Shown here one piece after another: positions 19,340 to 37,697 of a stretch of DNA of 57,999 nt. The stretch is from a virus. How positions within the stretch are numbered: the stretch's first letter is position 1; every line of letters starts with the position of its first letter. Made by a program: the position numbers and the translations under genes. The notes under the pieces were generated by a model, which was not told the DNA's origin, did not search any database, and was given only the letters and a program-made list of their open reading frames with translations. Location of the stretch: positions 1 through 57,999 of the IMG/VR virus record IMGVR_UViG_3300047322_000965. The stretch is one strand, 5' to 3'.

Positions 19340-19552
19340 GTCAGAACAATGTAGCGATGTTTTGGTAGTAGTACGTCAGAACAACGTAGCGACCCGTCAG
19401 AACAATGTAGCCGGGCGTCAGATCAATGCTAGTGGCCAATACAGGCGGTTGCTAACAAGGGGCGTCAGAACAATGCAGGCGGTGTCAGAACAATGCAGGG
19501 ACCAAACTAGGGGGTGCCAGAACAACGTAGCGGTTGGGGTGTCAGAACAATG
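19340..19552 (+). repeat. Cluster of eight GTCAGAACAATG motifs
   Basis: Copies start at 19340, 19375, 19396, 19417, 19464, 19484, 19516 and 19541. Six match all or all but one of the 12 bases. The rest differ at one or two positions (AACAACG, GATCAATG, GCCAG). The extended form is GTCAGAACAATGTAGC. Start-to-start distances are 35, 21, 21, 47, 20, 32 and 25 bases. All point the same way as the downstream genes. The motif falls in all three frames of the overlapping open frame, so it is conserved as DNA, not protein. Likely iterons or operator sites. Confidence 0.85.
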
Positions 19553-19662
19553 TAGCTATGTTTTGGATCAGCAAGTAAAAACCATACCATAAAACCACCT
19601 GTCAAAAGCCTATACAAGTCGAGGGGGCCGCCTCCCCAGTCTGCCAGAGGTGCCATACTAAT

Positions 19663-19690
19663 AAAAAAAAAAAAATAATATAATACCCCC
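19663..19690. other. A-tract and AT-rich unwinding-type element
   Basis: Thirteen consecutive A then TAATATAATA lie between the motif cluster and the first early gene. In origins such tracts serve as bendable or easily melted DNA. It could equally be the UP-element and -10 of a promoter. Confidence 0.45.
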
Positions 19691-19754
19691 TATAGGGAGT
19701 ATGGCGGTGGCCACCCAATCCAACCCACGTCAGGGTGCGGGCGACCCCCTAGAC

Positions 19755-19783
19755 TTGACAACTGTTTTTCATTATGGTTTTAT
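19755..19783 (+). promoter_or_regulatory. Sigma70-like promoter for the rightward module
   Basis: TTGACA (19755-19760), a 17-base spacer, then TTTTAT (19778-19783). The -35 is perfect and the -10 matches TATAAT at four of six positions. It sits about 43 bases before the first rightward start codon at 19826, so it is the best candidate for the early promoter. Confidence 0.65.
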
Positions 19784-19825
19784 GCCCCTGTTTTTACAAC
19801 TCTCAACTTATCTCAGGAACCCCCA

Positions 19826-20431
19826 ATGCGCCTAACTCAAGAACGAATAATCGCAATCATAGACTACGCAGTAAAATACAGCGACGCAATGATTGAAATT
19901 CGAGAGCGAATCGTCCCCGAACTACGACATATAAGTTCAACTCTAACCGACGGAACCCAAAAAGAAGCAATTGATAACGTCTGTCTATTCATACTCAATC
20001 TAACCGAGATTGACATTACTGCTATAAGGGATCTTGCAATCGAAAAGGCCCATTTCAACTCAACCCGAATTAAACATAACGAATATATGCGAAGCGCCTA
20101 CTATCGTCGGAAAGCAAAAAACGCTCATAGCGCAAATCCTCTCGATTTAGGAATGGAATCACCAGGTATCAATGACGATCCAATGGCAGCACAACGCGAA
20201 GTCTACCTAACTAATACCCGTCAGAACAATGAACATCCACGTCAGAACAATGTAGCTATAGAAGAAGTTCCACTCCTCGCTCGGATTGAAGCCCAAGCAG
20301 CCGAGTATGAAAAATCAAACCAGCCAACACAAAACTCCCCTTCCGAATCCGAGGAAGCCCTTAAAGCAAAATTCGGTCCCGACTTCCACCCACTTCCGGC
20401 CCGAGTTGGATTAAAAAGGAACCAAACCTAA
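19826..20431 (+). CDS. 201-aa hypothetical early protein carrying two motif copies
   Basis: First gene of the rightward module, after a CAGGAA ribosome site. Residues 1-100 are helical with an Ile/Glu-rich core (AIIDYAVKYSDAMIEIRERIVPEL); the rest is polar and likely flexible. Residues about 132-143 read RQNNEHPRQNN, produced by two GTCAGAACAATG copies (20220 and 20241) in the CAG-AAC-AAT frame. Not recognised. An early position suggests host takeover or replication initiation, but this is a guess. Confidence 0.75.
   Translation: MRLTQERIIAIIDYAVKYSDAMIEIRERIVPELRHISSTLTDGTQKEAIDNVCLFILNLTEIDITAIRDLAIEKAHFNSTRIKHNEYMRSAYYRRKAKNAHSANPLDLGMESPGINDDPMAAQREVYLTNTRQNNEHPRQNNVAIEEVPLLARIEAQAAEYEKSNQPTQNSPSESEEALKAKFGPDFHPLPARVGLKRNQT
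20220..20252 (+). repeat. Two in-gene GTCAGAACAATG copies 21 bp apart
   Basis: Exact 12-base copies at 20220-20231 and 20241-20252. The spacing equals the 21-bp steps of the non-coding cluster. They are translated as RQNN in a linker-like part of the 201-aa protein. Confidence 0.85.
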
Positions 20432-20790
20432 TGGACAACCCCAAACCCGACCTCCAAGTTACCCCAATATCTGATCCCAATCCTTGGATTCCAATTCAAA
20501 ACCCCCTCGACCTAAAACACTTAGGCAAACTTATTGAAGAACTCAACGAAGCCGGCTCGGCAACCGCCCGTTGTATAATTCAAGGCATAGACGAGGTTGA
20601 ACCTGTTACTAAAAAATCAAACCGCACTTGGCTTCAAGAAGAACTTGCCGATGTTATTGCAAACATAAATCTGGTCATCGAGCATTTCAAACTTAACGTT
20701 CCTGCCATCGAAGCACGAATTGATCGCAAATACGACCATTTAAAGAAATGGCACAACATGCTAAACAACGACGATCATAAGTTGGACTAA
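20431..20790 (+). CDS. MazG-like nucleotide pyrophosphohydrolase
   Basis: 119 residues, starting in a TAATG overlap. LGKLIEELNEAGSATARCIIQG (about 31-52) and WLQEELADVIANINLVIEHF supply the E-E-x-x-E and E-x-x-D acidic motifs of the all-alpha NTP-PPase (MazG/iMazG) family, which bind Mg and hydrolyse NTPs to NMPs. In phages they may clear dUTP or ppGpp-type nucleotides. With dCTP deaminase and ThyX in this genome, dUTP to dUMP is a plausible step. Confidence 0.75.
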   Translation: MDNPKPDLQVTPISDPNPWIPIQNPLDLKHLGKLIEELNEAGSATARCIIQGIDEVEPVTKKSNRTWLQEELADVIANINLVIEHFKLNVPAIEARIDRKYDHLKKWHNMLNNDDHKLD

Positions 20791-20794
20791 AGCG

Positions 20795-21115
20795 ATGAGA
20801 ACCCGTCGTTTCTTCAAAATAACCGAAATAGCTCTCCTGCGAAGATTAGCCGCCGAAGGAAAGTCTCAGAAGTTCTGCGCCGACCTCCTAGACCGAAATC
20901 CTGGAACCATCGCCCAAGCTGGGAAACGATACGGAATTTACTTCCATGCCACAACCGGAAGACCGAAAGCAACTGAAGCCGAACGCGCCGAACAACGCCA
21001 ACGACGCGCCGACGCTTGCAGGCGGTGGCGAGCGAAACAAGGCGCCAAAGTAATGCCACAAATGGCTCGGTTCCCACAGATAGAACGGTTTGACGATCCC
21101 AGAGTAATGATCTAA
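20795..21115 (+). CDS. 106-aa helix-turn-helix DNA-binding protein
   Basis: FFKITEIALLRRLAAEGKSQKFCADLLDRNPGTIAQAGKRYGI (residues 6-48) is a helix-turn-helix of the Myb/GcrA-like kind, followed by a strongly basic stretch (EAERAEQRQRRADACRRWRAKQ). It sits in the early operon just after the repeat cluster and before two genes whose start codons carry the GTCAGAACAATG motif, so it is the best local candidate to bind that motif. That link is inference. Confidence 0.7.
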   Translation: MRTRRFFKITEIALLRRLAAEGKSQKFCADLLDRNPGTIAQAGKRYGIYFHATTGRPKATEAERAEQRQRRADACRRWRAKQGAKVMPQMARFPQIERFDDPRVMI

Positions 21116-21123
21116 AGAAGGAT

Positions 21124-21135
21124 GTCAGAACAATG
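21124..21135 (+). promoter_or_regulatory. GTCAGAACAATG copy on a start codon
   Basis: An exact motif whose terminal ATG (21133) is the start codon of a 45-aa membrane ORF. AGAAGGA lies further upstream than usual. Confidence 0.8.
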
Positions 21136-21270
21136 AATGCCAATATCTCACACGAGGCTACAAGAGCTAAGCATAAAAAACTTATGAACATTTTAGGGAC
21201 TATACAGATAATTCTCGTTGTAATATTATTAATATTAAAATTATATAATGCTTACCATCACACTTATTAG
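21133..21270 (+). CDS. 45-aa single-pass membrane protein
   Basis: MNANISHEATRAKHKKLMNI... has a basic N-terminal part, then a hydrophobic helix (LGTIQIILVVILLILKLY) and a His/Tyr-rich end. The start codon is the ATG of a motif copy. Its stop is followed after 6 bases by the next motif copy. Function unknown. Confidence 0.65.
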   Translation: MNANISHEATRAKHKKLMNILGTIQIILVVILLILKLYNAYHHTY

Positions 21271-21276
21271 AAAGAC

Positions 21277-21288
21277 ATCAGAACAATG
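21277..21288 (+). promoter_or_regulatory. Motif copy (ATCAGAACAATG) on a start codon
   Basis: Eleven of twelve bases match. The ATG at 21286 is the start codon of the 119-aa gene. Only a weak AGAAAGA stands in for a ribosome site. Confidence 0.8.
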
Positions 21289-21832: not shown

Positions 21833-22072
21833 ATGACCGTTCCAAGTCTAAAATCCCAAAATGACGAAAAAGTCTACGTCAGAAAGCTCCGCCTAAACCA
21901 AGGCGGATATACAGACCGTGGAGATTACTACGGTACCGGTTTACCGTTATATGAGTGTTGGAATAATGAAATATACCAAACATTCCGCGCCGACGATCGT
22001 TCACATGCAATAGAGCAATTACGAGACTGTTACAAAGGCCAAGATATAAAAGTCTATAGGGAGGGCAACTAA
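21833..22072 (+). CDS. 79-aa conserved phage protein
   Basis: From the ATG at 21833 (GGAA 8 bases upstream) it reads KVYVRKLRLNQGGYTDRGDYYGTG and then a Trp/Asp-rich part. I recognise this 'K-V-Y-V-R-x-x-R-L-x-x-G-G-Y-x-x-x-G-x-Y-x-G' pattern from many phage early regions; it has no known function. Confidence 0.7.
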   Translation: MTVPSLKSQNDEKVYVRKLRLNQGGYTDRGDYYGTGLPLYECWNNEIYQTFRADDRSHAIEQLRDCYKGQDIKVYREGN

Positions 22073-22785
22073 TGCCAGCCCCAATCCAAAGCCAACTAAC
22101 AAATTCCTATCCCACCCCTCGGCAATTCTGGATTTATCGTATCCCCAGCTATATTCGGGGGAAAGATCCAAAGAATTACAAACCATCCCGCAAAGATGGG
22201 TTGCCAATGCTTTGTATTGGCCAATCAGCACAGCAAGCTCGCGAATCAATACGCCTTTTAAATGAAGGCCCGAACGAAACCCATTTTATTCGTATTCATA
22301 GAACCCCACTAGCCAATAACAAAAATTCCCGTCCAACCGGACATGGAATTGCCCGAAGTGAACCGCTTGCAGTTCCTGAGATTAACAAAACTCCAATTCC
22401 AATCCAAGGCCAACTAATAATCCAATGGGACGGAGCTACGCTTCGGGTAGAAGCTCCCGGTCGCAACGGTTCTCGGCAAAAAGTAGAGGGTGTTTACCTT
22501 TCCGACCTTCCACTTGAAATGCAACACTCCCTGCTTTCCCAAGTAGAAGATGCTCGCGACCGCAACCGGGCCGAACTCCTTGCAACCCAACGCGAAAACA
22601 TTGCTTACGTTGCCGGCGCTCGGGGAATGGGCGTAGAATTCGCCCGCCAGATTTGGCCATCGGCTACCATTACTTCCCGAACAATGCGCGCCCGATTGGC
22701 AAAAGCCGGCCAATATGATCCGATTTCCGGTAAAATCCGCGGCGAAACAAAGCCCCAGAAAGAAATCCTAGATCTGGACCTATAG
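22072..22785 (+). CDS. 237-aa hypothetical protein with LDLDL tail
   Basis: Starts in a TAATG overlap. The N-terminal half is Pro-rich beta (RQFWIYRIPSYIRG), then charged helices (QVEDARDRNRAELLATQREN), then a polar linker (ISGKIRGETKPQKE) ending ILDLDL at the exact C-terminus. Not recognised. The tail is shared with several other proteins here and may dock a common partner. Confidence 0.7.
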   Translation: MPAPIQSQLTNSYPTPRQFWIYRIPSYIRGKDPKNYKPSRKDGLPMLCIGQSAQQARESIRLLNEGPNETHFIRIHRTPLANNKNSRPTGHGIARSEPLAVPEINKTPIPIQGQLIIQWDGATLRVEAPGRNGSRQKVEGVYLSDLPLEMQHSLLSQVEDARDRNRAELLATQRENIAYVAGARGMGVEFARQIWPSATITSRTMRARLAKAGQYDPISGKIRGETKPQKEILDLDL

Positions 22786-22801
22786 GGAGGCAAAGAACCA
22801 A

Positions 22802-23062: not shown

Positions 23063-23063
23063 C

Positions 23064-23904: not shown

Positions 23905-25515
23905 ATGGCTGAATTCCCAATGGACACTTTCGAACTCGAAAAACAAATCCGGCTCTTAACCGGCAAAACTGTCGGCCCGAACCCGCGCGGCACTCCCGAA
24001 ATCAGTGTTCCGTTAGAACCGGAAGTCCGCGACCTACTAAAAGCTTGGCTAACCAGCCTCGGCGCTGATAACAATAAAAGTGATGTTGGCCTAGCCCGTT
24101 GTTATTCCGCAGGCCGCCAATGGGTCCGCAAGCGCCTAGTTAGCGGTGGCAACCAACCAAAAGAAGACCGCCCAATAATCGAGCTTGGCGGCTTTGGTCA
24201 AAATTCACTCTTAGATACCAATGACTTCGGTGAAACAAAAGCCCCCGAAGTTGTTCCCAGCTCAGTTCCACAACAAACAAAACCTTCCCAACCATCGCCA
24301 TCATCCAATCTCGACGATCTAGTTCTCGCAACCCGCGTTCGCGAAGCAACAAAACAACTAACATCCCAAGTTGCCGAGGCCGTGCGGATCGAAACAGCCC
24401 GTCAGATCAATGCATTGGGACTTGGAACCAAACTAACATCCGAAATCAGCACCCTCGTAACCAATCTAACATCCACACTGGCACATTCAGTCACAATGGA
24501 TGCAATAAAAAACAACCTTCCAGTCCGCATTGAACTGCAACTCCCAAATCGGGAAATTCGCCCGCTTTCAGAAGAACCCCGACACGAGAAGTTTGGTCAA
24601 ATCCTCCGCTACCTATCCCGAGGCCGCCACGTTTATGCGGTTGGCCCTGCCGGAACTGGCAAAACAAAGCTTGGCGAACAACTCGCGCAAGCGTTAGAAT
24701 TGGACTTCTATCCACTCTCTCCCGCCCTAACTCGCTACGAAGCATCCGGCTACCAATCCGCCACCGGCGAATACATTGGAACCCATCTGCGACGCGCGAT
24801 TGAATTCGGCGGCTTTGCACTTATCGACGAAGGCGACGCCTGGGCAGCCGCAGCAATGTTATTCCTAAACGCTCCCCTTGCCAACGGCTACTGTACCTTC
24901 CCAGACAAAGTAATCAAAGTCCATCCCGACTTTCGTTGTATGATTGCAGCCAATACCTTTGGCCGTGGGGCGGATCGCCAATATGTTGGCAGAAATCCCC
25001 TCGACGCCGCATCCCGAAACCGGTTTAAGTTTGTAGAAATCGGTTACGACCGAAAGCTAGAAACTATCCTCTTCGGTTCCGGCCAATGGGTCCAATACTG
25101 TTGGCGGGTTCGCGAAGCTGTCGAAACCCTCCGACTCCAACACGTTATTTCAATGCGGAACATTGAACTTTGCGTGGAAGACGCAAAATACGGCGATCCA
25201 ACCGAAGAAATCCTCGACGCCAACATCTGGCAAGGACTTGAACCCGACCAGATCAACAAAATAACAAACATCGCCGGGAAAATTGCGGTTGATAAAGTCC
25301 GTCAGAGCTACGACGGATTTATATCCAACCTAAAAGCCGGCAGCATTTCAGAAGCAACCAATATCTGGGCCAGTGAAATCGGTATTTCCTATTCCGAAGC
25401 AAAAGAATGGGTCGAGAACTGCGCCAACAAACCCCCATCATTCATTGAATGGAAAAATATGCGCGAATTAATCCTCGGCAACAAAGACAAATTTGACGAC
25501 GAGGAGGCCGCATAG
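23905..25515 (+). CDS. AAA+ ATPase, CobS/MoxR-like
   Basis: 536 residues from the ATG at 23905 (AAAGGA upstream). Residues 1-225 are a family-specific region with an IELGGFG motif at 92-98. The ATPase core has Walker A GPAGTGKT (247-254), Walker B FALIDE (304-309), a sensor-1 Asn (AAN at 348-350) and a likely arginine finger near RNRF (371-374). This is the CobS/MoxR subgroup, ring ATPases that work with VWA or metal-chelatase partners. The Asp-rich protein three genes downstream may be that partner. A copy of the repeat motif (GTCAGATCAATG) lies inside the gene. Confidence 0.85.
   Translation: MAEFPMDTFELEKQIRLLTGKTVGPNPRGTPEISVPLEPEVRDLLKAWLTSLGADNNKSDVGLARCYSAGRQWVRKRLVSGGNQPKEDRPIIELGGFGQNSLLDTNDFGETKAPEVVPSSVPQQTKPSQPSPSSNLDDLVLATRVREATKQLTSQVAEAVRIETARQINALGLGTKLTSEISTLVTNLTSTLAHSVTMDAIKNNLPVRIELQLPNREIRPLSEEPRHEKFGQILRYLSRGRHVYAVGPAGTGKTKLGEQLAQALELDFYPLSPALTRYEASGYQSATGEYIGTHLRRAIEFGGFALIDEGDAWAAAAMLFLNAPLANGYCTFPDKVIKVHPDFRCMIAANTFGRGADRQYVGRNPLDAASRNRFKFVEIGYDRKLETILFGSGQWVQYCWRVREAVETLRLQHVISMRNIELCVEDAKYGDPTEEILDANIWQGLEPDQINKITNIAGKIAVDKVRQSYDGFISNLKAGSISEATNIWASEIGISYSEAKEWVENCANKPPSFIEWKNMRELILGNKDKFDDEEAA
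24401..24412 (+). repeat. Variant motif copy GTCAGATCAATG inside the AAA gene
   Basis: One base differs from the consensus, the same change as the fourth cluster copy. Translated as RQIN. Could be chance, but direction and form fit the family. Confidence 0.5.
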
Positions 25516-25517: not shown

Positions 25518-25739
25518 ATGGCCAAGGCAATCATCTTATCAATCCATTCCGATCCAGAACGAAAGTTCCTCTACAAAGAGCGAATTCGTCAAACTCAACG
25601 TTCTTGGAAAGTCCATCGTAAAACAAAGTACCATCGCCTCGCCGGATTAAGAGCAAAAGACATACAACGGCTATTCAAATTCCTCGAAGCCAGCCGTCAC
25701 CGTCAGAACAATGCACGCCCGAACAATAATTGGTGCTAG
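25518..25739 (+). CDS. 73-aa basic hypothetical protein
   Basis: MAKAIILSIHSDPERKFLYKE..., strongly basic (RQTQRSWKVHRKTKYHRLAG). Its C-terminal RHRQNNARPNNNWC contains an exact motif copy (25702-25713) in the RQNN frame, so the motif may have extended the gene. Starts 2 bases after the ATPase stop. Not recognised. Confidence 0.6.
   Translation: MAKAIILSIHSDPERKFLYKERIRQTQRSWKVHRKTKYHRLAGLRAKDIQRLFKFLEASRHRQNNARPNNNWC
25702..25713 (+). repeat. Exact motif copy at the end of the 73-aa gene
   Basis: GTCAGAACAATG read as RQNN near the C-terminus. Confidence 0.8.
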
Positions 25740-25766: not shown

Positions 25767-25778
25767 CTCAGAACAATG
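25767..25778 (+). promoter_or_regulatory. Motif copy (CTCAGAACAATG) at a start codon
   Basis: Its ATG at 25776 opens the frame of the deoxyribosyltransferase-like gene. A second ATG at 25797 with GGAG 8 bases upstream is also possible as the true start. Confidence 0.75.
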
Positions 25779-26210
25779 CCAACTCGGAGACCTTCAATGC
25801 CTTATACCGAAGCTAATCTTACTGTATTTCTTTGCACGCCTCATAAGCATGGAGATTTTAATTATGAATTGATTAGGCGCATAGAGCAATATGGTTTTCA
25901 AGTTCTATGTGCAGCTACTCACAATCCGCAAAACCGTTCAAATAAAGACATTTTTGTAAGAAATGTTGAATTGATTCAACAATCACATATATTTGTCGCG
26001 GTTTTAAAGGATTACGGTAAAGATCTTACATGGGAAGTAGGTATGGCATACGGTCAGAAAATACCAACAATAGGACTAAATTACAATGCTCTCGAAACGG
26101 ACGTAATGACTTACTATTCATTAGATAAAATTGTTAAACCGGAAGAACTTGAATTGACTCTAAAAGAGTTTAACAAAAGAATCCAATATCGGATGCATCG
26201 CGATGGATGA
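25776..26210 (+). CDS. Nucleoside 2-deoxyribosyltransferase-like protein
   Basis: 144 residues (137 if the ATG at 25797 is used). LTVFLCTPHKHGDFNYELIRR, then NVELIQQSHIFVAVLKDYGKDLTWEVGMAYGQKIPTIGLN, matches the Rossmann-like NDT family: an acid after a hydrophobic strand, then the catalytic-type Glu in W-E-x-G-x-A-x-G. Relatives cleave N-glycosidic bonds of (deoxy)nucleosides, and related folds occur in TIR/SLOG-type signalling. It could salvage nucleosides, make a modified nucleotide or degrade a defence signal. It is AT-richer than its neighbours, hinting at separate origin. Confidence 0.7.
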   Translation: MPTRRPSMPYTEANLTVFLCTPHKHGDFNYELIRRIEQYGFQVLCAATHNPQNRSNKDIFVRNVELIQQSHIFVAVLKDYGKDLTWEVGMAYGQKIPTIGLNYNALETDVMTYYSLDKIVKPEELELTLKEFNKRIQYRMHRDG

Positions 26211-27714
26211 TAACGCTCCTCAGAACAATGAACAAACCCCCGCGACTGCGACTGCGACTGCGGACATTCTTGCGGAAGCAAACCTTTGGAATCCGCTCTG
26301 GGTTTACGATCTATTCCCAATCTACCAATCTTCTTGGAATCGGATGCCAATTGCCGGTGCCGATTTCGAAACTGAAAGTTCACATGAACCCCAACCAAAC
26401 CCCGAACCAAATAACAACCCTGAACAAGATTCTTCTAACAGTCCTGACGACGAAGAGAATTCTGACGATGAATCTAATAATAACACTGATGATAATGACG
26501 ATGATAGCCCAGATGAACCTGGCGACGATCAATCTGATTCTGATGCTGATTCTTCTACTGATGACGACGATAACAACACTAGCGAGTCTGGCGACGATGA
26601 CGATACTGATGAAGATAGAAATGGCGATAGCGACGACGGCGACGAAGATAGCAACGACGAAATAGAACCTGAAGATCAGGATAACTCCGATGCTAATGAT
26701 GAGGATGGACCTGATCTCGATCAAAACGAACCCAACGACGAACCGGATAACACTAACGATAGCGATAATCTCGACGAAACCGATCCCGATCGAAGTAATG
26801 AATATTCTCTGGAAGAGCCAAAACACGTCGAACCCAACCCAATACCCGGCCTAACAATAATGCAAACCGACGCCGGCCTAGAATACATTCGTGAATTTAA
26901 TTCCTGGGAAGATTTCGTCGAATGCGCCGCCGACAAATCCCTCTATGGCTGGAAGCAAACCTGTGAAAGCCATAATCCAAAACAAGGAACCGCCGGTGCC
27001 GGCGCAACCTGGACTGAAGCAATAGAAATGGCCCGATACCGCGGTTGGCCCGAAGGCCGCGAACTACTCTCCGACCTACTAACCAACATCACCCAAAAGA
27101 GCGAAAACTTTGAAATCTGGGCCTTTGATGTAGCTGGAATGTTTCCGGTTGTTCCCGCATTCCTTTCCGGCGACCCCGCTTGTATGATTGTGGACCCCGG
27201 AACCGATCTACGAACCCAATTTCCAATTATCCGCATCGACTACAACCATGAAGTTTCCTGGAACATAACTCCGCAAGACATGATGATACGCGGCGCGGCA
27301 GTCTTATCCCTTGCAAACAATCTCGAAGCCCACGGTTTCCAAACGGAACTTCGTATCATCGCCAATTCCCAAGCCTATATAGGCCGCAAACCCGCTATCT
27401 TCCGTTATTCTATAATCTACAAAAAGCCTGGTCAATTCCTCGATATTGATCGCGCTGCCTTTGCTCTGGCTCACCCTGCTTGTATGCGCAGACTTGGCTT
27501 TGCGCTTCTAGAACAACACGCCGAACTTGAAGCTGGTTTTAAAGACAGTTATGGCTCTCCACTCCATTCCTCAAATGACCCCGACTCCGGTTCTTTTGGA
27601 ACAATCTTCATTCCCGGCAGCCTTGGCCGCGAAACCGAAGCCAAGTCCCGAACCGTCGTAATGGCTGCCGCAGAAGCAACAACCTCCGCTCTCGCAACCG
27701 CCGAAGCAGATTAG
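26203..27714 (+). CDS. Asp-rich 503-aa protein, possible partner of the CobS-like ATPase
   Basis: Starts with an 8-bp overlap. Residues 1-60 are a short head; about 75-205 is an extremely acidic low-complexity region (Asp, Asn, Ser, Glu). From 215 is a folded domain starting DAGLEYIREFNSWEDFVECAADK and including GAAVLSLANNLEAHGFQTELRII, like the phage DUF7192-type proteins. CobT-type partners of CobS also have an acidic segment before a C-terminal domain, but I see no D-x-S-x-S metal site, so a CobT role is only suggested by layout and proximity. A motif copy falls in its fifth to tenth codons. Confidence 0.65.
   Translation: MDDNAPQNNEQTPATATATADILAEANLWNPLWVYDLFPIYQSSWNRMPIAGADFETESSHEPQPNPEPNNNPEQDSSNSPDDEENSDDESNNNTDDNDDDSPDEPGDDQSDSDADSSTDDDDNNTSESGDDDDTDEDRNGDSDDGDEDSNDEIEPEDQDNSDANDEDGPDLDQNEPNDEPDNTNDSDNLDETDPDRSNEYSLEEPKHVEPNPIPGLTIMQTDAGLEYIREFNSWEDFVECAADKSLYGWKQTCESHNPKQGTAGAGATWTEAIEMARYRGWPEGRELLSDLLTNITQKSENFEIWAFDVAGMFPVVPAFLSGDPACMIVDPGTDLRTQFPIIRIDYNHEVSWNITPQDMMIRGAAVLSLANNLEAHGFQTELRIIANSQAYIGRKPAIFRYSIIYKKPGQFLDIDRAAFALAHPACMRRLGFALLEQHAELEAGFKDSYGSPLHSSNDPDSGSFGTIFIPGSLGRETEAKSRTVVMAAAEATTSALATAEAD
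26219..26230 (+). repeat. Motif copy (CTCAGAACAATG) near the start of the Asp-rich gene
   Basis: Lies a few codons into the gene, read as PQNNE. The internal ATG is out of frame, so here the motif is not the start codon. Confidence 0.75.
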
Positions 27715-27727
27715 GAGTTTCATAAGA

Positions 27728-28129
27728 ATGATAGAAGAAAACAATATACTTGAGTTAGGCGATTTATCTTTTTTAACCAATTCATGGTTTCCACTTAAAA
27801 TTTGTGCTGCACCTGACTGCAATAGGTATGTAGTAAGTCCTCATTTCACAACCAAATATTGCACTAAAACATGCAAACACCGGCACTCCGCTCAACGCCA
27901 TTACAAGCTTCGCCGTGAAATATATCGACGTAGCTATATTAAAAATAAAGAAAAGATTAAAGAGCATAATCGCAAATATGCAAAAGAAAATCCAATACGA
28001 ACAAAAGCTTTTAAATTACTTTCTGATAACAGAGTATCTAACGACCCACTAATATTAGCAGAACAAATAAAAATTCTACAATCCCGCGCAACCAAAATGG
28101 AGCAAGCATGGAATAGAGCATTAAATTAA
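27728..28129 (+). CDS. CGNR-like zinc-finger protein
   Basis: 133 residues after a TAGGAG ribosome site. CAAPDCNRYVVSPHFTTKYC, then TKTCKHRHSAQRHYK, gives four Cys in the C-x4-C-x13-C-x3-C spacing of CGNR/treble-clef fingers, followed by a basic coiled helix (YRRSYIKNKEKIKEHNRKY). Probably binds nucleic acid. The codon use is AT-rich relative to neighbours. Confidence 0.7.
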   Translation: MIEENNILELGDLSFLTNSWFPLKICAAPDCNRYVVSPHFTTKYCTKTCKHRHSAQRHYKLRREIYRRSYIKNKEKIKEHNRKYAKENPIRTKAFKLLSDNRVSNDPLILAEQIKILQSRATKMEQAWNRALN

Positions 28130-28159
28130 ATCAAACTTACCATCAAAATGGAGCACACA

Positions 28160-28417
28160 ATGGCTGACACCACAGTTGTAACCAGCAAAGACGATTGCCA
28201 AGTAACACGAGTTAATACTCGTGAGATGATAAATGATCTTGGCACTCTCTTCAAAAAAGTAGTTTCGGGAGAAGCCTACAATAAAGATCAAATCAAAAGT
28301 GCTACCTCAGCAAGCAACGCAATAATGAAAATTGCGAAGCACGAGTTCGACGTATTCAAATACTTCGACTCGCGAATGCCTTCGCAACCAACACTCAAAA
28401 CAGTAGAAGAACAGTAA
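28160..28417 (+). CDS. 85-aa hypothetical protein
   Basis: The ATG at 28160 has TGGAG 7 bases upstream (an ATG at 28148 lies inside that ribosome site). Soluble helical protein with VNTREMINDLGTLFKKVVSGE and SATSASNAIMKIAKHEFDVFKYF. The pattern resembles small phage proteins near recombination genes, but I cannot name it. Confidence 0.6.
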   Translation: MADTTVVTSKDDCQVTRVNTREMINDLGTLFKKVVSGEAYNKDQIKSATSASNAIMKIAKHEFDVFKYFDSRMPSQPTLKTVEEQ

Positions 28418-28513
28418 TTTATCTACCTAGACAAAAACTACCTGAGCATGTAGTAAAAAGGCTCTCCAACCTCTGCCACCAAAAGAAGCCATAGCATAAA
28501 AGGAACCACACAA

Positions 28514-28924: not shown

Positions 28925-28936
28925 CTTAGAACAATG
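28925..28936 (+). promoter_or_regulatory. Motif copy (CTTAGAACAATG) on a start codon
   Basis: Ten of twelve bases match. The ATG at 28934 starts the YkgJ-like gene. AGGGA lies upstream of the motif. Confidence 0.65.
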
Positions 28937-29482
28937 AATGAACCAAAATCCCGTTCCTGCGGCTCATGTTTTGCATGTTGCATATTCTTAGGCATAGCCG
29001 AATTAAAAAAGTATCCAACCCAAAACTGCAAACACCTAGACGGTTCTCTTGGACCCAATACCCGATGCAGCATCTATTCTTCCCGTCCCGAACCCTGCTC
29101 ACGATACCGTTGCGGTTATATTGACGGTATTGGTTCCGACGAATCTTTCCGCCCCGACAACTCGGGCGTCCTAATAACCACATACCCCGATCCAGATAAA
29201 CCATTTCCACTATTCCACACAACCATAGTTATCTGTGACGCTAAAAAGGCCGGAACAATCAACGATGGCAAACTTAGCCAAATCATAAAATTAATCCTTG
29301 AAACCGAACTTTGCACGGCGCTAAATGTGGTAAATTACTCTACCCTCGAAGTAAACCATTTCAGAGACGGTAAAATCTACCTTGGCCGCCTAATAAAAAC
29401 TCCCGAATACGAAGGTTTCAAATTCGTTGCAGAAAATAAACCATTCGGTTCATATATGGTTCTCTCTATGGAGCAAAAATAA
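28934..29482 (+). CDS. YkgJ-like Cys-cluster protein
   Basis: 182 residues. CGSCFACC (C9, C12, C15, C16), CKHL, then CSIYSSRPEPCSRYRCG reproduces the YkgJ/CxxCxxxCC zinc- or iron-chelating family (C-x2-C-x2-CC ... C-x-x-Y-x-x-R-P-x-x-C). Such proteins are predicted metalloproteins of unknown reaction, some acting in oxidation or lysine modification. Starts on a motif copy. Confidence 0.75.
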   Translation: MNEPKSRSCGSCFACCIFLGIAELKKYPTQNCKHLDGSLGPNTRCSIYSSRPEPCSRYRCGYIDGIGSDESFRPDNSGVLITTYPDPDKPFPLFHTTIVICDAKKAGTINDGKLSQIIKLILETELCTALNVVNYSTLEVNHFRDGKIYLGRLIKTPEYEGFKFVAENKPFGSYMVLSMEQK

Positions 29483-29658
29483 TGGCAACCCGCGACGAAA
29501 TAACCCGCGCCCTAGATGCTGTTCAAAAAGAACTCTATGACATTGTGCGCAAACATGCCATCGATATACCCGATTGCGCGGTTGAAGAAATTGCAATCTA
29601 TTTCGTTACAAAAGAAATCCCAACTCTATACGATTGGCATCCTCGTCGCCGCAGCTAA
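29482..29658 (+). CDS. 58-aa hypothetical protein
   Basis: Starts in a TAATG overlap with the YkgJ-like gene. MATRDEITRALDAVQKELYD... is helical and acidic-basic, ending YDWHPRRRS. The coupling and composition support it. Not recognised. Confidence 0.6.
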   Translation: MATRDEITRALDAVQKELYDIVRKHAIDIPDCAVEEIAIYFVTKEIPTLYDWHPRRRS

Positions 29659-29665
29659 ATAGGGA

Positions 29666-29677
29666 CTCAGAACAATG
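29666..29677 (+). promoter_or_regulatory. Motif copy (CTCAGAACAATG) on a start codon
   Basis: The ATG at 29675 begins a 35-aa membrane ORF; AGGGA precedes the motif. Confidence 0.8.
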
Positions 29678-29782
29678 AACCAACACTTCCACATGATACC
29701 CCGCCCCAATGATTTTATAAAAGCATATCTATTGATATTATTAATAGTATTAATCCTATCGATATTCGGATTTTTTAAATAA
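29675..29782 (+). CDS. 35-aa single-pass membrane protein
   Basis: MNQHFHMIPRPNDFIKAYLL..., whose second half is wholly hydrophobic (LILLIVLILSIFGFF) ending in Lys. Starts on a motif copy, as does the 45-aa membrane ORF at 21133. Function unknown. Confidence 0.55.
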   Translation: MNQHFHMIPRPNDFIKAYLLILLIVLILSIFGFFK

Positions 29783-29805
29783 CCCAAACCGAGAGGCATA
29801 AACTC

Positions 29806-30180
29806 ATGAATACCAAACCCGACCTAACATTCCCAATCGTCGGTGCGTTCTTTCGTCCGCCAGGAGTCTCAATCCTAAAGCACATTCCCCTAAACACTCC
29901 ACTCATCCTACATGCCGATCCAAACAATCCAAAAGATCCCAATGCAATCGGCGTCTGGATCGCCAAGTCCGACATTCCATTCGACCGCATTCGCGCCCGC
30001 CCAGAAGTACAAGAAGCAATGGAATACAACCGCAACGATGAATTCCACCTTGGCTTCATCCCCGCAGCCGATGCTGAAAAGATCAACTACGACCGATCCC
30101 TAGCTATCCTCGCCCAATTCAAAATCGACCCCAACGGAAAACCAATGGTAAGAATGCTTTCTTTCAAAAAACCTGAATAG
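29806..30180 (+). CDS. HIRAN-domain protein
   Basis: 124 residues. FPIVGAFFRPPGVSILKHIPLNTPLILHADPNNPKDPNAIGVWI followed by FHLGFIPAADAEKI is the HIRAN pattern: an N-terminal strand, 'L-x-x-D-P-x-N-P-x-D-x-N-A-I-x-V', and 'L-G-F-I-P-x-x-x-A'. HIRAN domains bind 3' ends of single-stranded DNA and stalled-fork structures, often attached to helicases or nucleases; here it stands alone. A role at phage replication ends is likely. Confidence 0.8.
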   Translation: MNTKPDLTFPIVGAFFRPPGVSILKHIPLNTPLILHADPNNPKDPNAIGVWIAKSDIPFDRIRARPEVQEAMEYNRNDEFHLGFIPAADAEKINYDRSLAILAQFKIDPNGKPMVRMLSFKKPE

Positions 30181-30192
30181 GAGGCCGCCCCC

Positions 30193-30633
30193 ATGCCAAA
30201 GTTCGCCATCATAAACACCGACGCCAAAACAATCGAACTCCACGATGTTCCCGTCTACACGGATGCTATGAAACTTGTCAACCTAAAAAGGGGCGAAGTC
30301 GATTTCTGTTCCATCGGAGCATATCACGACCAAACATTCCACATCATTGTTTTCGAATTTGGCCTAATGCGCCCAAAGCAAACAACCTACTTTCGCCTCG
30401 GCACCCAATTATTCAACGGCAACGCAGTTATATTCGCTGCCGACCTCGAAGGTATTACAATCGATTTTCCTTCCAACATAGCCGAACATTGGAAAGTTTG
30501 CCCTGCATTCGAATGGTTCGCCTCTGCATCCGAAGTCGAAGCGGCAATAACCGCAAGCCGTGTCCTCCGCCCACAATCCGCCGTTAACGGCCAAGTCTTT
30601 TGGTCCTGGAACAAGAAGGAAACCCTCCAATGA
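30193..30633 (+). CDS. 146-aa hypothetical protein
   Basis: Preceded by a perfect AGGAGG. MPKFAIINTDAKTIELHDVP..., alpha/beta with a Phe-rich centre (YHDQTFHIIVFEFGLMRPK). Overlaps the next start by ATGA. Not recognised. Confidence 0.65.
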   Translation: MPKFAIINTDAKTIELHDVPVYTDAMKLVNLKRGEVDFCSIGAYHDQTFHIIVFEFGLMRPKQTTYFRLGTQLFNGNAVIFAADLEGITIDFPSNIAEHWKVCPAFEWFASASEVEAAITASRVLRPQSAVNGQVFWSWNKKETLQ

Positions 30634-30869
30634 ACCGAACCATCCTCGCAGCCACACTTCTATTCTCAATCTCCACACCCGCACCCGCTGCCAACATCGA
30701 TCGCGAACTATTCTGGAACTGCCTACTCCTCGGCTACACCCCCGATTATTGCATCGATGCAATAAACACCTATCACCACGAAACAACTCAATCCGGAGTA
30801 ACAATCCTTCGCGGGCAAGCTCCCAGCGGTTTTCAGCCAGAAGTCAAAGAAATTCCAACCGAGCGTTAA
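30630..30869 (+). CDS. 79-aa secreted protein
   Basis: From the ATG at 30630, coupled by ATGA, it begins with a signal peptide (MNRTILAATLLFSISTPAPAA, with cleavage after APAA likely), then a 58-aa mature part with two Cys (WNCLLLGYTPDYC) that may pair in the periplasm. The frame stays open for 34 more codons after the TAA. Could modify the envelope or block superinfection; unknown. Confidence 0.65.
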   Translation: MNRTILAATLLFSISTPAPAANIDRELFWNCLLLGYTPDYCIDAINTYHHETTQSGVTILRGQAPSGFQPEVKEIPTER

Positions 30870-30979
30870 CAAAGGCCCATCGCGATAGCGACCACCACAA
30901 CCGATCCCGACCCCCAATCCCAATTCGCCCCCGAAGTCTTATCGTTGGTCAATGCAATGCTAGAAATAGGATAAATCAA

Positions 30980-31156
30980 ATGGAATTTATACTAGAATTT
31001 CTCGGCCTGTTTGCATGGAGCGTTCTATGCTTCATTAGTGGAGCGGTGTTTGCAGCTAACAAATCAGTAGAAAAGTTTATAAAGCTTTTCGATAGAGAGA
31101 AATTAAAAGCCGCTTATATTGGTGATGAAGAAGATATTAAAAATCATCTAAAGTAG
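30980..31156 (+). CDS. 58-aa membrane protein
   Basis: The ATG at 30980 has TAGGA 9 bases upstream. MEFILEFLGLFAWSVLCFISG is a membrane helix and is followed by a charged tail (KLFDREKLKAAYIGDEEDIK). A longer open frame from 30560 is a shadow of the gene before it. Function unknown. Confidence 0.6.
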   Translation: MEFILEFLGLFAWSVLCFISGAVFAANKSVEKFIKLFDREKLKAAYIGDEEDIKNHLK

Positions 31157-32081: not shown

Positions 32082-32299
32082 CCGACAAAGAACCTCAAGT
32101 AATCGTAAAGAAATCAGAATCAAAAACCGTAAGTTACATCTTTCCATTCCCTAAAATCGAAGCACTTATAATTGCTCACGCAAAGGAGATTTTCCCTGAG
32201 TTTCAAGGATTTTCAGATCGTCAAATTAAAACCACTATTAAAGGTGAAGGCGAGGATACAGAAATTATCTTGTCCGCATTCAGGGAGAAAAGCTCATGA
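32078..32299 (+). CDS. 73-aa hypothetical protein
   Basis: Starts in an ATGA overlap. MTDKEPQVIVKKSESKTVSY..., basic N-terminal strand region and a helix (IEALIIAHAKEIFPEF) then a Lys/Thr strand. Not recognised. Confidence 0.6.
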   Translation: MTDKEPQVIVKKSESKTVSYIFPFPKIEALIIAHAKEIFPEFQGFSDRQIKTTIKGEGEDTEIILSAFREKSS

Positions 32300-32655
32300 T
32301 CGACGACACAATCCGAACCCTATTCGTCGCCGGCGATCTAGACGGAATTCTATACCAAATAGAAATCCTAATGGAAGACCGCGCCCGCGTCCGCGCTGAA
32401 AATGACGCCCACAAGCATACCATCCATCGCCTATCAGTCGCTTTCGCCAACATCACCGAACCAAAAACTGGCCTTCCAATCAAAAGCCCCAGCCCAAGCC
32501 CCAATCCAAGCCCAAAACCAACTACCCCCGTCAGAACAACGGGCGCAAAGCCCGGCGCAAAGCCCCAACCAAAGCCCCCCGTCAGAACAATGAATCCACC
32601 CAAACCCAAACCAAGCAAAGAAGCTCTCGACCTAGACCTCGATCTCGACCTATAG
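32296..32655 (+). CDS. 119-aa Pro-rich protein with LDLDLDLDL tail
   Basis: Starts in an ATGA overlap. Residues 1-50 are a helical domain (LDGILYQIEILMEDRARVRAEN). Residues 55-105 are a Pro/Lys/Ser linker containing two repeat-motif copies in the GTC-AGA-ACA frame (VRTT and VRTM). It ends ALDLDLDLDL, the longest version of the shared tail. The layout of a folded head, a flexible arm and a short C-terminal hook suggests a docking adaptor. Confidence 0.7.
   Translation: MIDDTIRTLFVAGDLDGILYQIEILMEDRARVRAENDAHKHTIHRLSVAFANITEPKTGLPIKSPSPSPNPSPKPTTPVRTTGAKPGAKPQPKPPVRTMNPPKPKPSKEALDLDLDLDL
32530..32592 (+). repeat. Two motif copies in the Pro-rich linker
   Basis: GTCAGAACAACG at 32530-32541 and exact GTCAGAACAATG at 32581-32592. 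They are read as VRTT and VRTM, a different frame from the RQNN copies, which shows selection or spread at DNA level. Confidence 0.85.
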
Positions 32656-32924: not shown

Positions 32925-32936
32925 GTCAGAACAATG
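32925..32936 (+). promoter_or_regulatory. Exact motif on a start codon
   Basis: GTCAGAACAATG whose ATG (32934) is the start codon of the coiled-coil gene. Confidence 0.8.
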
Positions 32937-34045: not shown

Positions 34046-34282
34046 ATGGCACCCACTCTTGTATCAAAAGCAATGCCAAACAATCCTACAAAACGCCCAA
34101 CCCCCGAAGACTTAGAAAGGATCAGAGAATTCCAGCTATCTATGGCCAGAACCGCCAGAGAAGCTAGCTTTGCAATGGAACGTCTAACGCGCGCCCTGAC
34201 TGCCGGCGCTGCCGCGTTCCAAAAAGCCTTCGAAAAAGAAATAAACCGCAAACGAAAAGTAAGGAACAATCCCAATGTCTGA
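34046..34282 (+). CDS. 78-aa helical basic protein
   Basis: MAPTLVSKAMPNNPTKRPTP..., then a single long helix (EDLERIREFQLSMARTAREASF...) and a Lys/Arg-rich end (INRKRKVRNNPNV). It overlaps the next start. A start at 34073 is also possible. Not recognised. Confidence 0.55.
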   Translation: MAPTLVSKAMPNNPTKRPTPEDLERIREFQLSMARTAREASFAMERLTRALTAGAAAFQKAFEKEINRKRKVRNNPNV

Positions 34283-34601
34283 ACAACCAAACATCCCAAC
34301 CCCAGAATACCATCCCAACGCTCTCCTGCTAGAGCTAACATTCAACGACCACGGCCATCTAATCGTCCGCATCCCCGACTCCATGTCCCAACGCGGCGGC
34401 AAAGTAACCCTAAGCCCCGGTTCCGTTGAAGCCCAACTCCGCAACATTCTCGACGTTGAAAACAAAATCAAAAAACACGAAGCGGCTTTCTACGGCGAAC
34501 CAGGCGTCCGCGATCTGGCCCGCGATCTAAAAGCTGGTCGAATAAAAACAACCCGGATCGAGAAATCCACCGCCCCGCTCGAACTCGATCTGGACCTATA
34601 A
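34275..34601 (+). CDS. 108-aa hypothetical protein with LDLDL tail
   Basis: MSEQPNIPTPEYHPNALLLE... A beta-rich N-terminal half (GHLIVRIPDSMSQRGGKVTLSPGS), a helix and a polar linker (RIKTTRIEKSTAP) end in LELDLDL. The last bases (GATCTGGACCTATA) equal those of the gene at 22072, but other tail genes use different codons. Not recognised. Confidence 0.65.
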   Translation: MSEQPNIPTPEYHPNALLLELTFNDHGHLIVRIPDSMSQRGGKVTLSPGSVEAQLRNILDVENKIKKHEAAFYGEPGVRDLARDLKAGRIKTTRIEKSTAPLELDLDL

Positions 34602-34602
34602 G

Positions 34603-35173: not shown

Positions 35174-35879
35174 TCCACTAACCCAAGCTTTTCGCATCGG
35201 CAACTTCATAACAATCTGGCACAAAGACCCACTCAACTTCAAAGGCAAAGTTTGCCGGCGCGACGATGATAGTTGCGGCTGGTTCACTCCCCCATATCCA
35301 ATTTCCGAAAAAGAAAAGATCGAAAAACTCTCCGCTTCTCAATATCGCGAAATCTTTGCTCGTCAAGTAGCAGTTCGCGAAGACAAAAGTTACGCCTACA
35401 TTTGCAACGAACCAGACTGTCGCAGCGCGATTTATTGGTCCTGGCGCGCCATCAAACACCATTACAAACCCCGCACCGTTTGGCAATACGGTTGCAAATT
35501 AACTCTATCCGAACTCGAACATATTTATTCCCTCGCAACCTGCCCCGTTGATAACCTGCAAACTACTTTCCAACAAGTCAAAGACCCCGAAACATTTCAG
35601 AATTTCTTTTTCCTCGTATTCGCGGCATACTTGCGTCATTCCCGCCCTTGGTATCGCCACCCACGTTGGCATTTCTGGCATTGGCAAATCCAAATCCACC
35701 CCATCCAAACCTTCAAACGTTGGGCCTTCTCTCGCTGCGCTACTTGTAGCAAACGTTTCTCCTATGGCTATTCGCCAGTAACTAATTCTTGGGATGGAAC
35801 CGGACCGCGTTGGTTCCGATCCGAATCCGACGTTCACCATTCCAATTGCATCAATTATTCTGGAACCCCAAAGTCATGA
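35166..35879 (+). CDS. 237-aa protein with Cys/His clusters
   Basis: From the ATG at 35166 (overlapping the previous stop by 8 bp). Cys/His pairs occur at YICNEPDCRS, QYGCKL and CATCSKRF, with a late HHSNC, so one or two zinc sites are likely. The middle is Trp/His-rich (RHPRWHFWHWQIQIH). I do not recognise the family. It may bind nucleic acid. Confidence 0.6.
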   Translation: MHDPLTQAFRIGNFITIWHKDPLNFKGKVCRRDDDSCGWFTPPYPISEKEKIEKLSASQYREIFARQVAVREDKSYAYICNEPDCRSAIYWSWRAIKHHYKPRTVWQYGCKLTLSELEHIYSLATCPVDNLQTTFQQVKDPETFQNFFFLVFAAYLRHSRPWYRHPRWHFWHWQIQIHPIQTFKRWAFSRCATCSKRFSYGYSPVTNSWDGTGPRWFRSESDVHHSNCINYSGTPKS

Positions 35880-36148
35880 TTACCAAACGCCTCCCAATCG
35901 ATGAACTTATCGACCGCGAAGCCCACAAGCTCGCCCTGGCCGACTACATGCAGGAGAAAAACATAACCCCCAATAAAAACCTTCCACCCGATATCGAATC
36001 CCAAATCCAAACCCTCCTATCCACAACCGACGCCTACCACATCATTGCAAAGCAAAACATCCTAGCCCAAAAGGCCGCACACGATGAAGCGCTCCGCGCC
36101 ATCGGTCTAAACCCGATTGAAGTTGATGCAATGGACCTCGATCTATGA
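35876..36148 (+). CDS. 90-aa hypothetical protein with MDLDL tail
   Basis: Starts in an ATGA overlap. MITKRLPIDELIDREAHKLA..., helical throughout (LADYMQEKNI, IESQIQTLLSTTDAYHIIAKQ), ending EVDAMDLDL. Another carrier of the shared C-terminal hook. Not recognised. Confidence 0.65.
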   Translation: MITKRLPIDELIDREAHKLALADYMQEKNITPNKNLPPDIESQIQTLLSTTDAYHIIAKQNILAQKAAHDEALRAIGLNPIEVDAMDLDL

Positions 36149-36267
36149 CCCTCGGCGACGGAATAGCAATTGTAGGCATAGCAGCAAGTATCGCAGCTAT
36201 TCTAATCGTCCGAATAGTTTTGGATTATTTTTATACCAAAATTAACCTAGGTCTAAAAAAGGAATAA
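36145..36267 (+). CDS. 40-aa membrane protein
   Basis: ATGA overlap start. MTLGDGIAIVGIAASIAAIL..., one membrane helix, then a basic end (TKINLGLKKE). Function unknown. Confidence 0.6.
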   Translation: MTLGDGIAIVGIAASIAAILIVRIVLDYFYTKINLGLKKE

Positions 36268-36273
36268 GATCAA

Positions 36274-36453
36274 ATGGACCTCAACACCGACCCACTAAAG
36301 AAACAAGCCGAAGCTGAACTTGGACACCCAATTCCAAACGAATATTGGACCAAAGAAGTAAGAGATTTCTATAAAATCTGGTTCCACGGACGAAACTACG
36401 GTGCCGAGGGAACATTTGGAATGATCTGCGGCATCGAGGACTTAAAGCGATGA
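36274..36453 (+). CDS. 59-aa hypothetical protein
   Basis: AAGGAA ribosome site. MDLNTDPLKKQAEAELGHPI... with EYWTKEVRDFYKIWFHGRNYG, a helical charged protein; overlaps the next start by ATGA. Not recognised. Confidence 0.6.
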   Translation: MDLNTDPLKKQAEAELGHPIPNEYWTKEVRDFYKIWFHGRNYGAEGTFGMICGIEDLKR

Positions 36454-36632
36454 ACAAATACGACCAAGCCAACCTGGCCGCCCTAAAACGAATACAAGTA
36501 ATTATTCGTGAATCCTATCCTTATCCCGAAGATGCAGAAGCTGAATTTCCAGATTTAACTCTAGCACTTGGCATAATTCTCGGAACAGCTGAATATGCTA
36601 TCCGTGAAATCGAGAAGGAACTAAAATCATGA
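36450..36632 (+). CDS. 60-aa hypothetical protein
   Basis: ATGA overlaps at both ends. MNKYDQANLAALKRIQVIIR..., helical with an acidic linker (YPEDAEAEFPDL). Not recognised. Confidence 0.6.
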   Translation: MNKYDQANLAALKRIQVIIRESYPYPEDAEAEFPDLTLALGIILGTAEYAIREIEKELKS

Positions 36633-36826
36633 AAAAAGTAACCCTCCGTGTCGATCCAGATGACTACGAATATCTCCGCAAAATGGCCGAATCCAAGTTC
36701 GACTACGGCGGCCTCAATCTAATCATTCGCCAAGTCCTCCACGCCTTCGTTATCAATACCAAAGCTCTCGAACAAAAACACCATCAACAACAACAACAAG
36801 CTCCAGTTGCCGCCGAAGGAAACTAA
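36629..36826 (+). CDS. 65-aa ribbon-helix-helix-like protein
   Basis: MKKVTLRVDPDDYEYLRKMAESKFDY is a strand followed by helices as in ribbon-helix-helix repressors (K-V-T-L-R-V-D-x-x-x-x-x-x-L). The C-terminus has HHQQQQQ, an unusual homopolymer. Probably a small DNA-binding regulator. Confidence 0.6.
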   Translation: MKKVTLRVDPDDYEYLRKMAESKFDYGGLNLIIRQVLHAFVINTKALEQKHHQQQQQAPVAAEGN

Positions 36827-36830
36827 AAGC

Positions 36831-37037
36831 ATGGCTAACAACACCGAAATAAATCCTCTTCAAGCCAAATTAACTCCATACGTCACCGCATTAAAACATT
36901 CCGCAGACACAGGAAATGCAAAAGCTAAACAAGTGATTTCTCTTTATAAGATGTATACACAGTGTCCAGAAGTCGGCGCAGCAACTCTATGTGAAGCTTT
37001 CTTAGAAGATTGGAAGAAAGAAACAGACAATGTCTGA
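36831..37037 (+). CDS. 68-aa hypothetical protein
   Basis: GAAGGAAA precedes the ATG at 36831. MANNTEINPLQAKLTPYVTA..., a helical repeat-like protein (NAKAKQVISLYKMYTQCP). Overlaps the next start by 8 bp. Not recognised. Confidence 0.6.
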   Translation: MANNTEINPLQAKLTPYVTALKHSADTGNAKAKQVISLYKMYTQCPEVGAATLCEAFLEDWKKETDNV

Positions 37038-37281
37038 AAACTATTCCGTTTGTCAGTTCTTCGAAGATGGCAATTACGAATTCGTGCGCCGATTTATATC
37101 TCCCGAAGAAGCCGTGAATGTCGCAATTCATTATTCAACTAGCATTGCAGCCAAAAACCACATGGTAACCCGTGTAATAATAACCGACAGCGGCGACCAA
37201 TGTAATTGGGAATGGAAATTCGATGAAGGAATTACCTTTCCCCCACAATTCGTGGGAAAATTAAAGCGAGGAATTCGATAA
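37030..37281 (+). CDS. 83-aa hypothetical protein
   Basis: MSENYSVCQFFEDGNYEFVR..., alpha/beta, with a SPEEAVNVAIHYSTS helix and VTRVIITDSGD strand; resembles small phage proteins that follow ribbon-helix-helix genes. Unnamed. Confidence 0.6.
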   Translation: MSENYSVCQFFEDGNYEFVRRFISPEEAVNVAIHYSTSIAAKNHMVTRVIITDSGDQCNWEWKFDEGITFPPQFVGKLKRGIR

Positions 37282-37697
37282 TGCCAACCAACACTGGCGG
37301 CTTTGGCGGTGTAAGTGTCGGCAAACCAACCGATACAACCCCCACCCCCAAACCAAAACCCAATGAAAACCTAACCGCGTCCCTACGCGCAACCCTTCAA
37401 ATAGTCAAAGCCGAAGACGAAGACGATTCCGATCCAATCCCATCCCCGCTTAACGAAGCAACTCCCGATTCCGTAAACATTCTTCTCGACCGCATTAACA
37501 ACCATATGATTGAAGGTAAAATCCTCACCGACGCCGACCTACGGCTCGGGATTGATCTATATCGTTCCCAAGCACTCCGCTATGCCCAAGAACAAGAAAC
37601 CAAAAAACCGCGCGCTCGATCCGGGGCTAAATCAACACTAAAGCAAGTTCTCGATCTCGACGATCTCGATTTCGACGCGCCGGCCTCAGAACAATGA
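37281..37697 (+). CDS. 138-aa protein with GGFG head and LDLDDLDF tail
   Basis: TAATG overlap start. MPTNTGGFGGVSVGKPTDTT is a Gly-rich head, then a Pro/acidic linker, a helical core (SVNILLDRINNHMIEGKIL) and QVLDLDDLDFDAPASEQ at the end. The last four codons (GCC TCA GAA CAA, then TGA) come from a motif copy that also supplies the start of the next gene. Adjacent to the Cas4-like nuclease, so perhaps its adaptor. Confidence 0.65.
   Translation: MPTNTGGFGGVSVGKPTDTTPTPKPKPNENLTASLRATLQIVKAEDEDDSDPIPSPLNEATPDSVNILLDRINNHMIEGKILTDADLRLGIDLYRSQALRYAQEQETKKPRARSGAKSTLKQVLDLDDLDFDAPASEQ
37685..37696 (+). promoter_or_regulatory. Motif copy spanning a stop and a start codon
   Basis: CTCAGAACAATG ends the 138-aa gene (S-E-Q-stop) and its ATG (37694) starts the nuclease gene. 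This is the third reading frame used by the motif. Confidence 0.8.

Follow-up and report, generated by a model that had tools for sequence, protein, structure and literature searches.

A 58.0-kb window (57,999 nucleotides; IMG/VR virus record IMGVR_UViG_3300047322_000965, positions 1 to 57,999), which is a piece of a tailed-phage genome, carries a short asymmetric motif, GTCAGAACAATG, that recurs in 22 copies with at most two mismatches, all on the plus strand within 19340-37696/37697. Eight of these copies form a non-coding cluster, seven lie at gene junctions and seven within genes, and copies persist in one close relative. The motif is tentatively interpreted as a DNA site recognized by a sequence-specific binding protein, probably a product of the phage itself, in an arrangement that combines an array with oriented sites affecting transcript elongation; to this interpretation we give slightly less than an even chance. 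The eight-copy cluster would be the main array in the control region between two diverging transcription arms, and the fourteen dispersed sites, at junctions or in tolerant parts of genes, would most likely be places where elongation is slowed or halted by the bound protein, as at mycobacteriophage stoperators. A site acting at the DNA level would explain most of the observations, including the single orientation and the presence of sites at starts and within genes alike.

Copy number, orientation and confinement of the motif

Over the whole window, GTCAGAACAATG occurs 11, 21 and 24 times on the plus strand at zero, at most one and at most two mismatches, respectively, and 0, 0 and 3 times on the minus strand, the three being weak copies. 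Within 19340-37697, the corresponding counts are 11, 20 and 22 on the plus strand and 0, 0 and 1 on the minus strand; the plus strand of 1-19339 has 0, 0 and 0, and that of 37698-55525 has 0, 1 and 2. Dinucleotide shuffles of the early arm (plus strand, 19340-55525), made in 1-kb blocks with composition kept, yield means of 0.003, 0.09 and 1.5 copies and maxima of 1, 2 and 6 at the same thresholds, and shuffles of the whole window on both strands yield a mean of 3.8 and a maximum of 10, compared with 27 observed. In addition, GTCAGAACA heads the over-represented 9-mer families of the window (14 occurrences vs 0.17 expected, and 0 on the opposite strand). The 22 copies are nearly identical, with an information content of about 22 bits. 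Conservation reaches position 14 (A in 18 of 22 copies), position 0 favours C, and the element, about 15 bases when so extended, is closer to (C)GTCAGAACAATGNA.

A first-pass annotation, made from the letters alone, had described about 20 same-direction copies in the early region, none of them reversed, none before 19.3 kb and none in full form after 37.7 kb. The two-strand scan against shuffled sequence that it had proposed bears this description out, the motif being enriched far above the shuffles, strand-biased and confined to the early region. Each copy that it listed is found at the place named, the positions given for start-codon copies being those of the motif ATG, 9 bases past the motif start. 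The two weaker copies beyond 37.7 kb are listed in Table 1; the one at 46720 is probably a coding coincidence, since it lies inside a conserved stretch of the DNA polymerase.

The divergent control region and the cluster

The genome map is circular and about 73.6 kb long, as deduced from a relative, G003 (IMGVR 3300046817_000924, 42.9 kb), which connects both window ends through about 15.6 kb; this joining region holds two further imperfect motif copies, TTCAGAACAATG and GTCAGATCAACG. Terminase and portal are among the minus-strand genes, and the plus-strand genes at 19.8-55.5 kb include those for MazG-like, CobS-like, exonuclease, DNA polymerase, primase/helicase, ThyX-like and ribonucleotide reductase proteins. 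The cluster lies in the divergent region between the two sets, right of an A+T-rich, G-poor tract, and its copies start 35, 21, 21, 47, 20, 32 and 25 nucleotides apart. An open reading frame (ORF) spanning the cluster (19239-19592) was rejected as a gene because the motif copies fall in different frames. Rfam and tRNA scans found nothing.

Direct repeats next to an A+T-rich element (19000-19552), several of them near 20-21 nucleotides or two helical turns apart, recall the iteron origins of phages and plasmids, and the adjoining tract of 27-28% GC is a possible DNA-unwinding element or, alternatively, a possible early leader. The cluster could be an origin recognized by an initiator such as the tandem helix-turn-helix (HTH) protein encoded within the replication module, with the dispersed copies serving as secondary sites or copy-control sinks; a more distant relative, G009, has iteron-like repeats of another sequence, not dispersed, in the same divergent region. 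However, such an origin does not account for the dispersed copies, of which there are fourteen, all oriented alike and half in start-codon register; the spacings of 35, 47, 32 and 25 nucleotides are irregular, and GC skew has no switch at the divergent region. We regard origin iterons as an unlikely explanation of the motif.

Promoter candidates occur around the cluster. The rightward sigma70-like candidate upstream of it is weaker than those with TTGACA, and the overall number of hits in the promoter scan is not clearly over chance. The sole minus-strand TTGACA of the region adjoins the cluster on its right. A genuine promoter there would place the cluster within the leader of the leftward operon, with its copies facing against that transcription, and would make an antisense role conceivable: a late leftward transcript from about 19600 would carry the complements of all eight copies, pair with motif-bearing early mRNAs and silence them. 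Such a multi-copy switch is highly improbable: its promoter is known only as a match to the consensus, start codons are remote from most of the in-gene copies, and the terminator-like hairpin at 19683-19702 speaks only for an end to leftward transcripts that begin further right. The two TTGACA elements are surrounded by an inverted repeat, which was dropped as a promoter-pair signature, since the region has an equally good pair elsewhere. The decamer CTATAGGGAG has three exact copies, one in the control-region hairpin (19690-19699) and two at ribosome-binding sites of early genes (22054-22063 and 22780-22789).

Dispersed copies and their fate in relatives

The fourteen non-cluster copies are scattered over 18 kb at the beginning of the early arm, and all face the direction of early transcription. 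At each of the seven junctions, the motif ATG coincides with the start codon of the gene that follows: 7 of the 13 ATG-bearing dispersed sites use it as a gene start (P = 1.4e-4, against a background of 290 ATGs in that stretch, 33 of which are gene starts in the ORF set). The first-pass annotation had counted six or seven such copies; the count here is seven, the start at 25776 being the least certain. Copies inside genes translate as RQNN, PQNN, RQIN or VRTM/VRTT, that is, in more than one frame, and most of them fall in tails, linkers or N-terminal extensions absent from, or unconserved in, the G009 homologues, in agreement with the earlier proposal that the constraint acts on the nucleic acid.

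The start-codon register, together with the location of every copy on the sense strand and a rightward promoter candidate upstream of the cluster, would suit control at the RNA level, in which a phage RNA-binding protein or small RNA binds the motif in mRNA and blocks or promotes initiation, with the cluster leader acting as a sponge or in self-control. Elements overlapping the start codons of several early genes, as here, are known from the translational operators of the T4 RegA type. However, the motif is, unlike those, long and nearly invariant, and it is also present in non-coding DNA and within genes. Half of the dispersed copies are within genes, in several frames, and those at 26219 and 25702 are near but not at starts, so a translation signal alone does not explain the dispersed copies. 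A location at ribosome-binding sites fits seven motif sites and not the other 15, motif positions are no more accessible in RNA than composition-matched controls (P = 0.67), and no complementarity to rRNA exceeds that of shuffles (E. coli rRNA was used, which may not be that of the host). Moreover, the genes at 28934 and 37694 have counterparts in G009 whose starts are preceded by different sequence, and the scheme presumes transcription of the cluster. Control at the RNA level is considered unlikely, on a par with the origin.

Near-identical strains (about 98% identity) cover eight of the motif sites and keep 8/8, which at this identity suggests conservation only weakly. The sole difference is at 28925 in strain G004, where CTT is replaced by CTC, giving CTCAGAACAATG, closer to the consensus than CTTAGAACAATG. 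Searches with two early proteins yielded no sister contig covering 17-27 kb, and the strains found leave the cluster uncovered. Strain G004, otherwise 94-98% identical, differs in sequence at 27711-28499, a segment without a motif copy.

The more distant G009 (IMGVR 3300037258_001195; polymerase 62% and ribonucleotide reductase 64% identical) has a syntenic early arm with no strong motif copy and, by word counting, no other dispersed oriented word. A comparable motif there would probably have been detected, because the same counting ranks the stoperators of Trixie and the start-associated sequences of Adephagia first in those genomes. G009 has three iteron-like repeats, AATAGCSCGYG, with spacings of 22 and 33, confined to the corresponding divergent region, suggesting that direct repeats in this region may be common to both lineages and that dispersed copies may be limited to the lineage of the window. 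The first-pass annotation had staked its proposal on relatives not keeping the genes without the motif, which G009 does; this shows that the motif is lineage-specific and dispensable for those genes, and does not mean that it is functionless.

Most other relatives have no equivalent motif, with enriched words listed by position in G020, G022 and G025, and the oriented repeat of G011 is limited to one 2-kb array and not dispersed. This array (28999-31036, about 2 kb) comprises about 37 copies of GAGTGTACCG on one strand (at most one mismatch) at a spacing of about 30-50 bases, often with a GAGC...AGCC partner and apparently in gene-free DNA. An IMG/VR search with the pair pattern TCAGAACAAYG-N5-35-TCAGAACAAYG retrieved just two contigs, both unrelated, and the pair pattern in 84,980 species genomes gave 77 unrelated stretches, among which no host source of the motif was recognised; the richest of them have mostly regular spacings, often multiples of three, like repetitive genes.

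The finding of the motif only in the window and near-identical strains would also be compatible with a short repeat spread by local duplication under little selection, and TAGC follows five of the eight cluster copies and the copy at 20241, while the copies at 19340 and 19541 are alike over 26 nucleotides. Such spreading is quite improbable given the single orientation, the start-codon register and the little flank sharing among distant copies, as well as the persistence in G004 and its difference toward the consensus.

Table 1. Coordinates of motif copies, control-region elements and candidate binding proteins in the window
Feature	Coordinates	Strand	Remarks
Divergent control region	18331-19826	.	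1.5 kb, longest intergenic gap; minus-strand genes leftward, early plus-strand genes rightward; from ORF layout
A+T-rich, G-poor tract	19000-19310	+	lowest GC 27-28%; imperfect CTACAA/ACTACAACT repeats; role inferred
Sigma70-like promoter candidate TTGACT-16-TAAAAT	19166-19193	+	rightward, upstream of cluster; scan 10/12
Cluster of eight copies	19340-19552	+	starts 19340, 19375, 19396, 19417, 19464, 19484, 19516, 19541
TTGACA	19600-19605	-	leftward promoter candidate
Palindromic hairpin ATACCCCCTATAGGGAGTAT with A/T run	19683-19702	.	terminator-like for leftward transcripts
TTGACA, 17 nucleotides before TTTTAT	19755-19783	+	sole plus-strand TTGACA of the region; rightward promoter candidate before first early gene
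Two in-gene copies, 20220 and 20241	20220-20252	+	within gene 19826-20431; both read RQNN
Small basic HTH-like protein, candidate binder	20795-21115	+	motif sites flank gene on both sides; Pfam HTH_38 E 0.033, below cut-off; phrog_5536
Junction copy	21124-21135	+	ATG opens 45-residue ORF at 21133
Junction copy ATCAGAACAATG	21277-21288	+	ATG opens gene at 21286
In-gene copy GTCAGATCAATG	24401-24412	+	CobS-like gene, weakly conserved stretch
In-gene copy	25702-25713	+	C-terminal tail of gene 25518-25739
Junction copy CTCAGAACAATG	25767-25778	+	ATG is possible start at 25776
In-gene copy CTCAGAACAATG	26219-26230	+	16 nucleotides into gene 26203-27714, 9 nucleotides past previous stop; ATG not the start
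Junction copy CTTAGAACAATG	28925-28936	+	start of gene 28934
Junction copy CTCAGAACAATG	29666-29677	+	start of 35-residue ORF 29675
Two in-gene copies, 32530 (GTCAGAACAACG) and 32581	32530-32592	+	A/K/P-rich C-terminal part of gene 32296-32655
Junction copy	32925-32936	+	ATG 32934 is likely start of gene ending 33650
Junction copy CTCAGAACAATG	37685-37696	+	spans stop of gene 37281-37697 and start of exonuclease gene 37694
Two-HTH protein of replication module, candidate for short asymmetric site	42162-42746	+	phrog_32138, phrog_14131 DNA-binding protein
Weak copy GTCAGAACGACG	46720-46731	+	within DNA polymerase
Partial later copy GTCAGAACAATC	48399-48410	+	status uncertain

Comparison with known systems and candidate binding proteins

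The layout described here most resembles the stoperators of cluster A mycobacteriophages; it is mainly from these phages and their close kin that dispersed oriented sites affecting elongation are firmly known. In L5, transcription is reported to be halted by the repressor at many asymmetric sites, an effect that is lost when the sites are reversed (PMC9283540). Cluster A genomes such as those of L5, Bxb1 and Trixie have 20-30 short asymmetric stoperators in the early arm, in one orientation and oriented with transcription (PMC6550527, PMC9283540); the non-coding head region contains several of them, and others occupy gene junctions. The 22 strong sites of the window on one strand agree with this number and orientation, and a control scan of Trixie found about 20 one-strand sites, several in the non-coding head of its early arm. 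However, the cluster A consensus is GGTGGATGTCAAG-like (GGTGGMTGTCAAG type) and differs from GTCAGAACAATG, the window has a tight cluster of eight, and seven of its sites share one start-codon register, whereas the Trixie sites are at varying distances from starts. Neither tblastn nor phmmer gave the Trixie repressor gp75 a significant match in the window or in the tail region of G003, and the window, G003 and G004 all lack hits to PF00589, PF00239 and PF13614 (tyrosine/serine recombinase, integrase and ParA-type ATPase). Because a repressor homologue, integrase, serine recombinase and ParA were not found and the consensus is different, membership in the cluster A system fails; the stoperator analogy drawn in the first-pass annotation holds for layout alone.

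The start-associated sequences (SAS) of cluster K phages are 13-bp asymmetric repeats in one orientation, restricted to non-structural genes and tied to translation starts (PMC3203893). The window motif shares the orientation, the link to starts and the non-structural confinement, with two imperfect copies in the tail region of the map. However, nearly all SAS lie a few nucleotides upstream of starts and have a Shine-Dalgarno-like core (nearly all in the Adephagia control), whereas the window motif contains the start codon itself, and 15 of its 22 sites are not at starts, eight of these belonging to the non-coding cluster and seven lying inside genes. The motif is not an SAS, because just 7/22 sites are at starts. 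The system is thus neither a cluster A stoperator system nor an SAS system, and either label would be wrong.

That the motif works like stoperators is the best single guess, although with slightly less than even confidence. The 22-copy excess, the strand bias, the persistence in G004, the layout match with Trixie and the presence of proteins with HTH features argue for an array with oriented elongation-affecting sites. Several points weigh against it. With integrase, serine recombinase and ParA not found, it is not obvious what a lysogeny repressor would do here, although stoperators can be retained in virulent relatives of temperate phages. Unlike in Trixie, seven copies have their ATG exactly as a start codon, a possible sign of a role in translation; if real, the leftward promoter candidate would have the neighbouring cluster oriented against its transcription; G009 lacks both the motif and a dispersed substitute; and no result links either candidate protein to the motif.

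The candidates are the products of 42162-42746 and 20795-21115. The former has weak HTH matches at residues 73-95 and 124-167 of a longer ORF, and the AlphaFold models of both are of low confidence, that of the latter being helical; the product of 20795-21115 remains only a candidate regulator. In G009, the tandem-HTH gene appears to be replaced, as judged by eye from the sequence, by one at 79736-81160 for an apparent ParB-like protein whose C-terminal part is methyltransferase-like.

A more far-reaching proposal, which is possible but somewhat unlikely, is that a code resembling stoperators, consisting of the eight-site array and fourteen oriented sites, has evolved independently in a phage with no detectable lysogeny genes, and that its regulator, unrelated to the cluster A repressor, meters early transcription or drives the early-to-late switch. 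If true, this would be a second, unrelated case without an integrase or known repressor, indicating that such a strategy can arise independently and does not depend on lysogeny, and reversal of a site would be a simple test of how a bound protein tells the directions of RNA polymerase apart. If the effect is instead translational, the motif would help with the still unexplained SAS of cluster K.

Among the early proteins, those encoded at 22072-22785, 32296-32655, 34275-34601 and 37281-37697 end, or nearly end, in alternating L/D runs (LDLDLDL, LELDLDL, ILDLDL and LDLDDLDFD, respectively).

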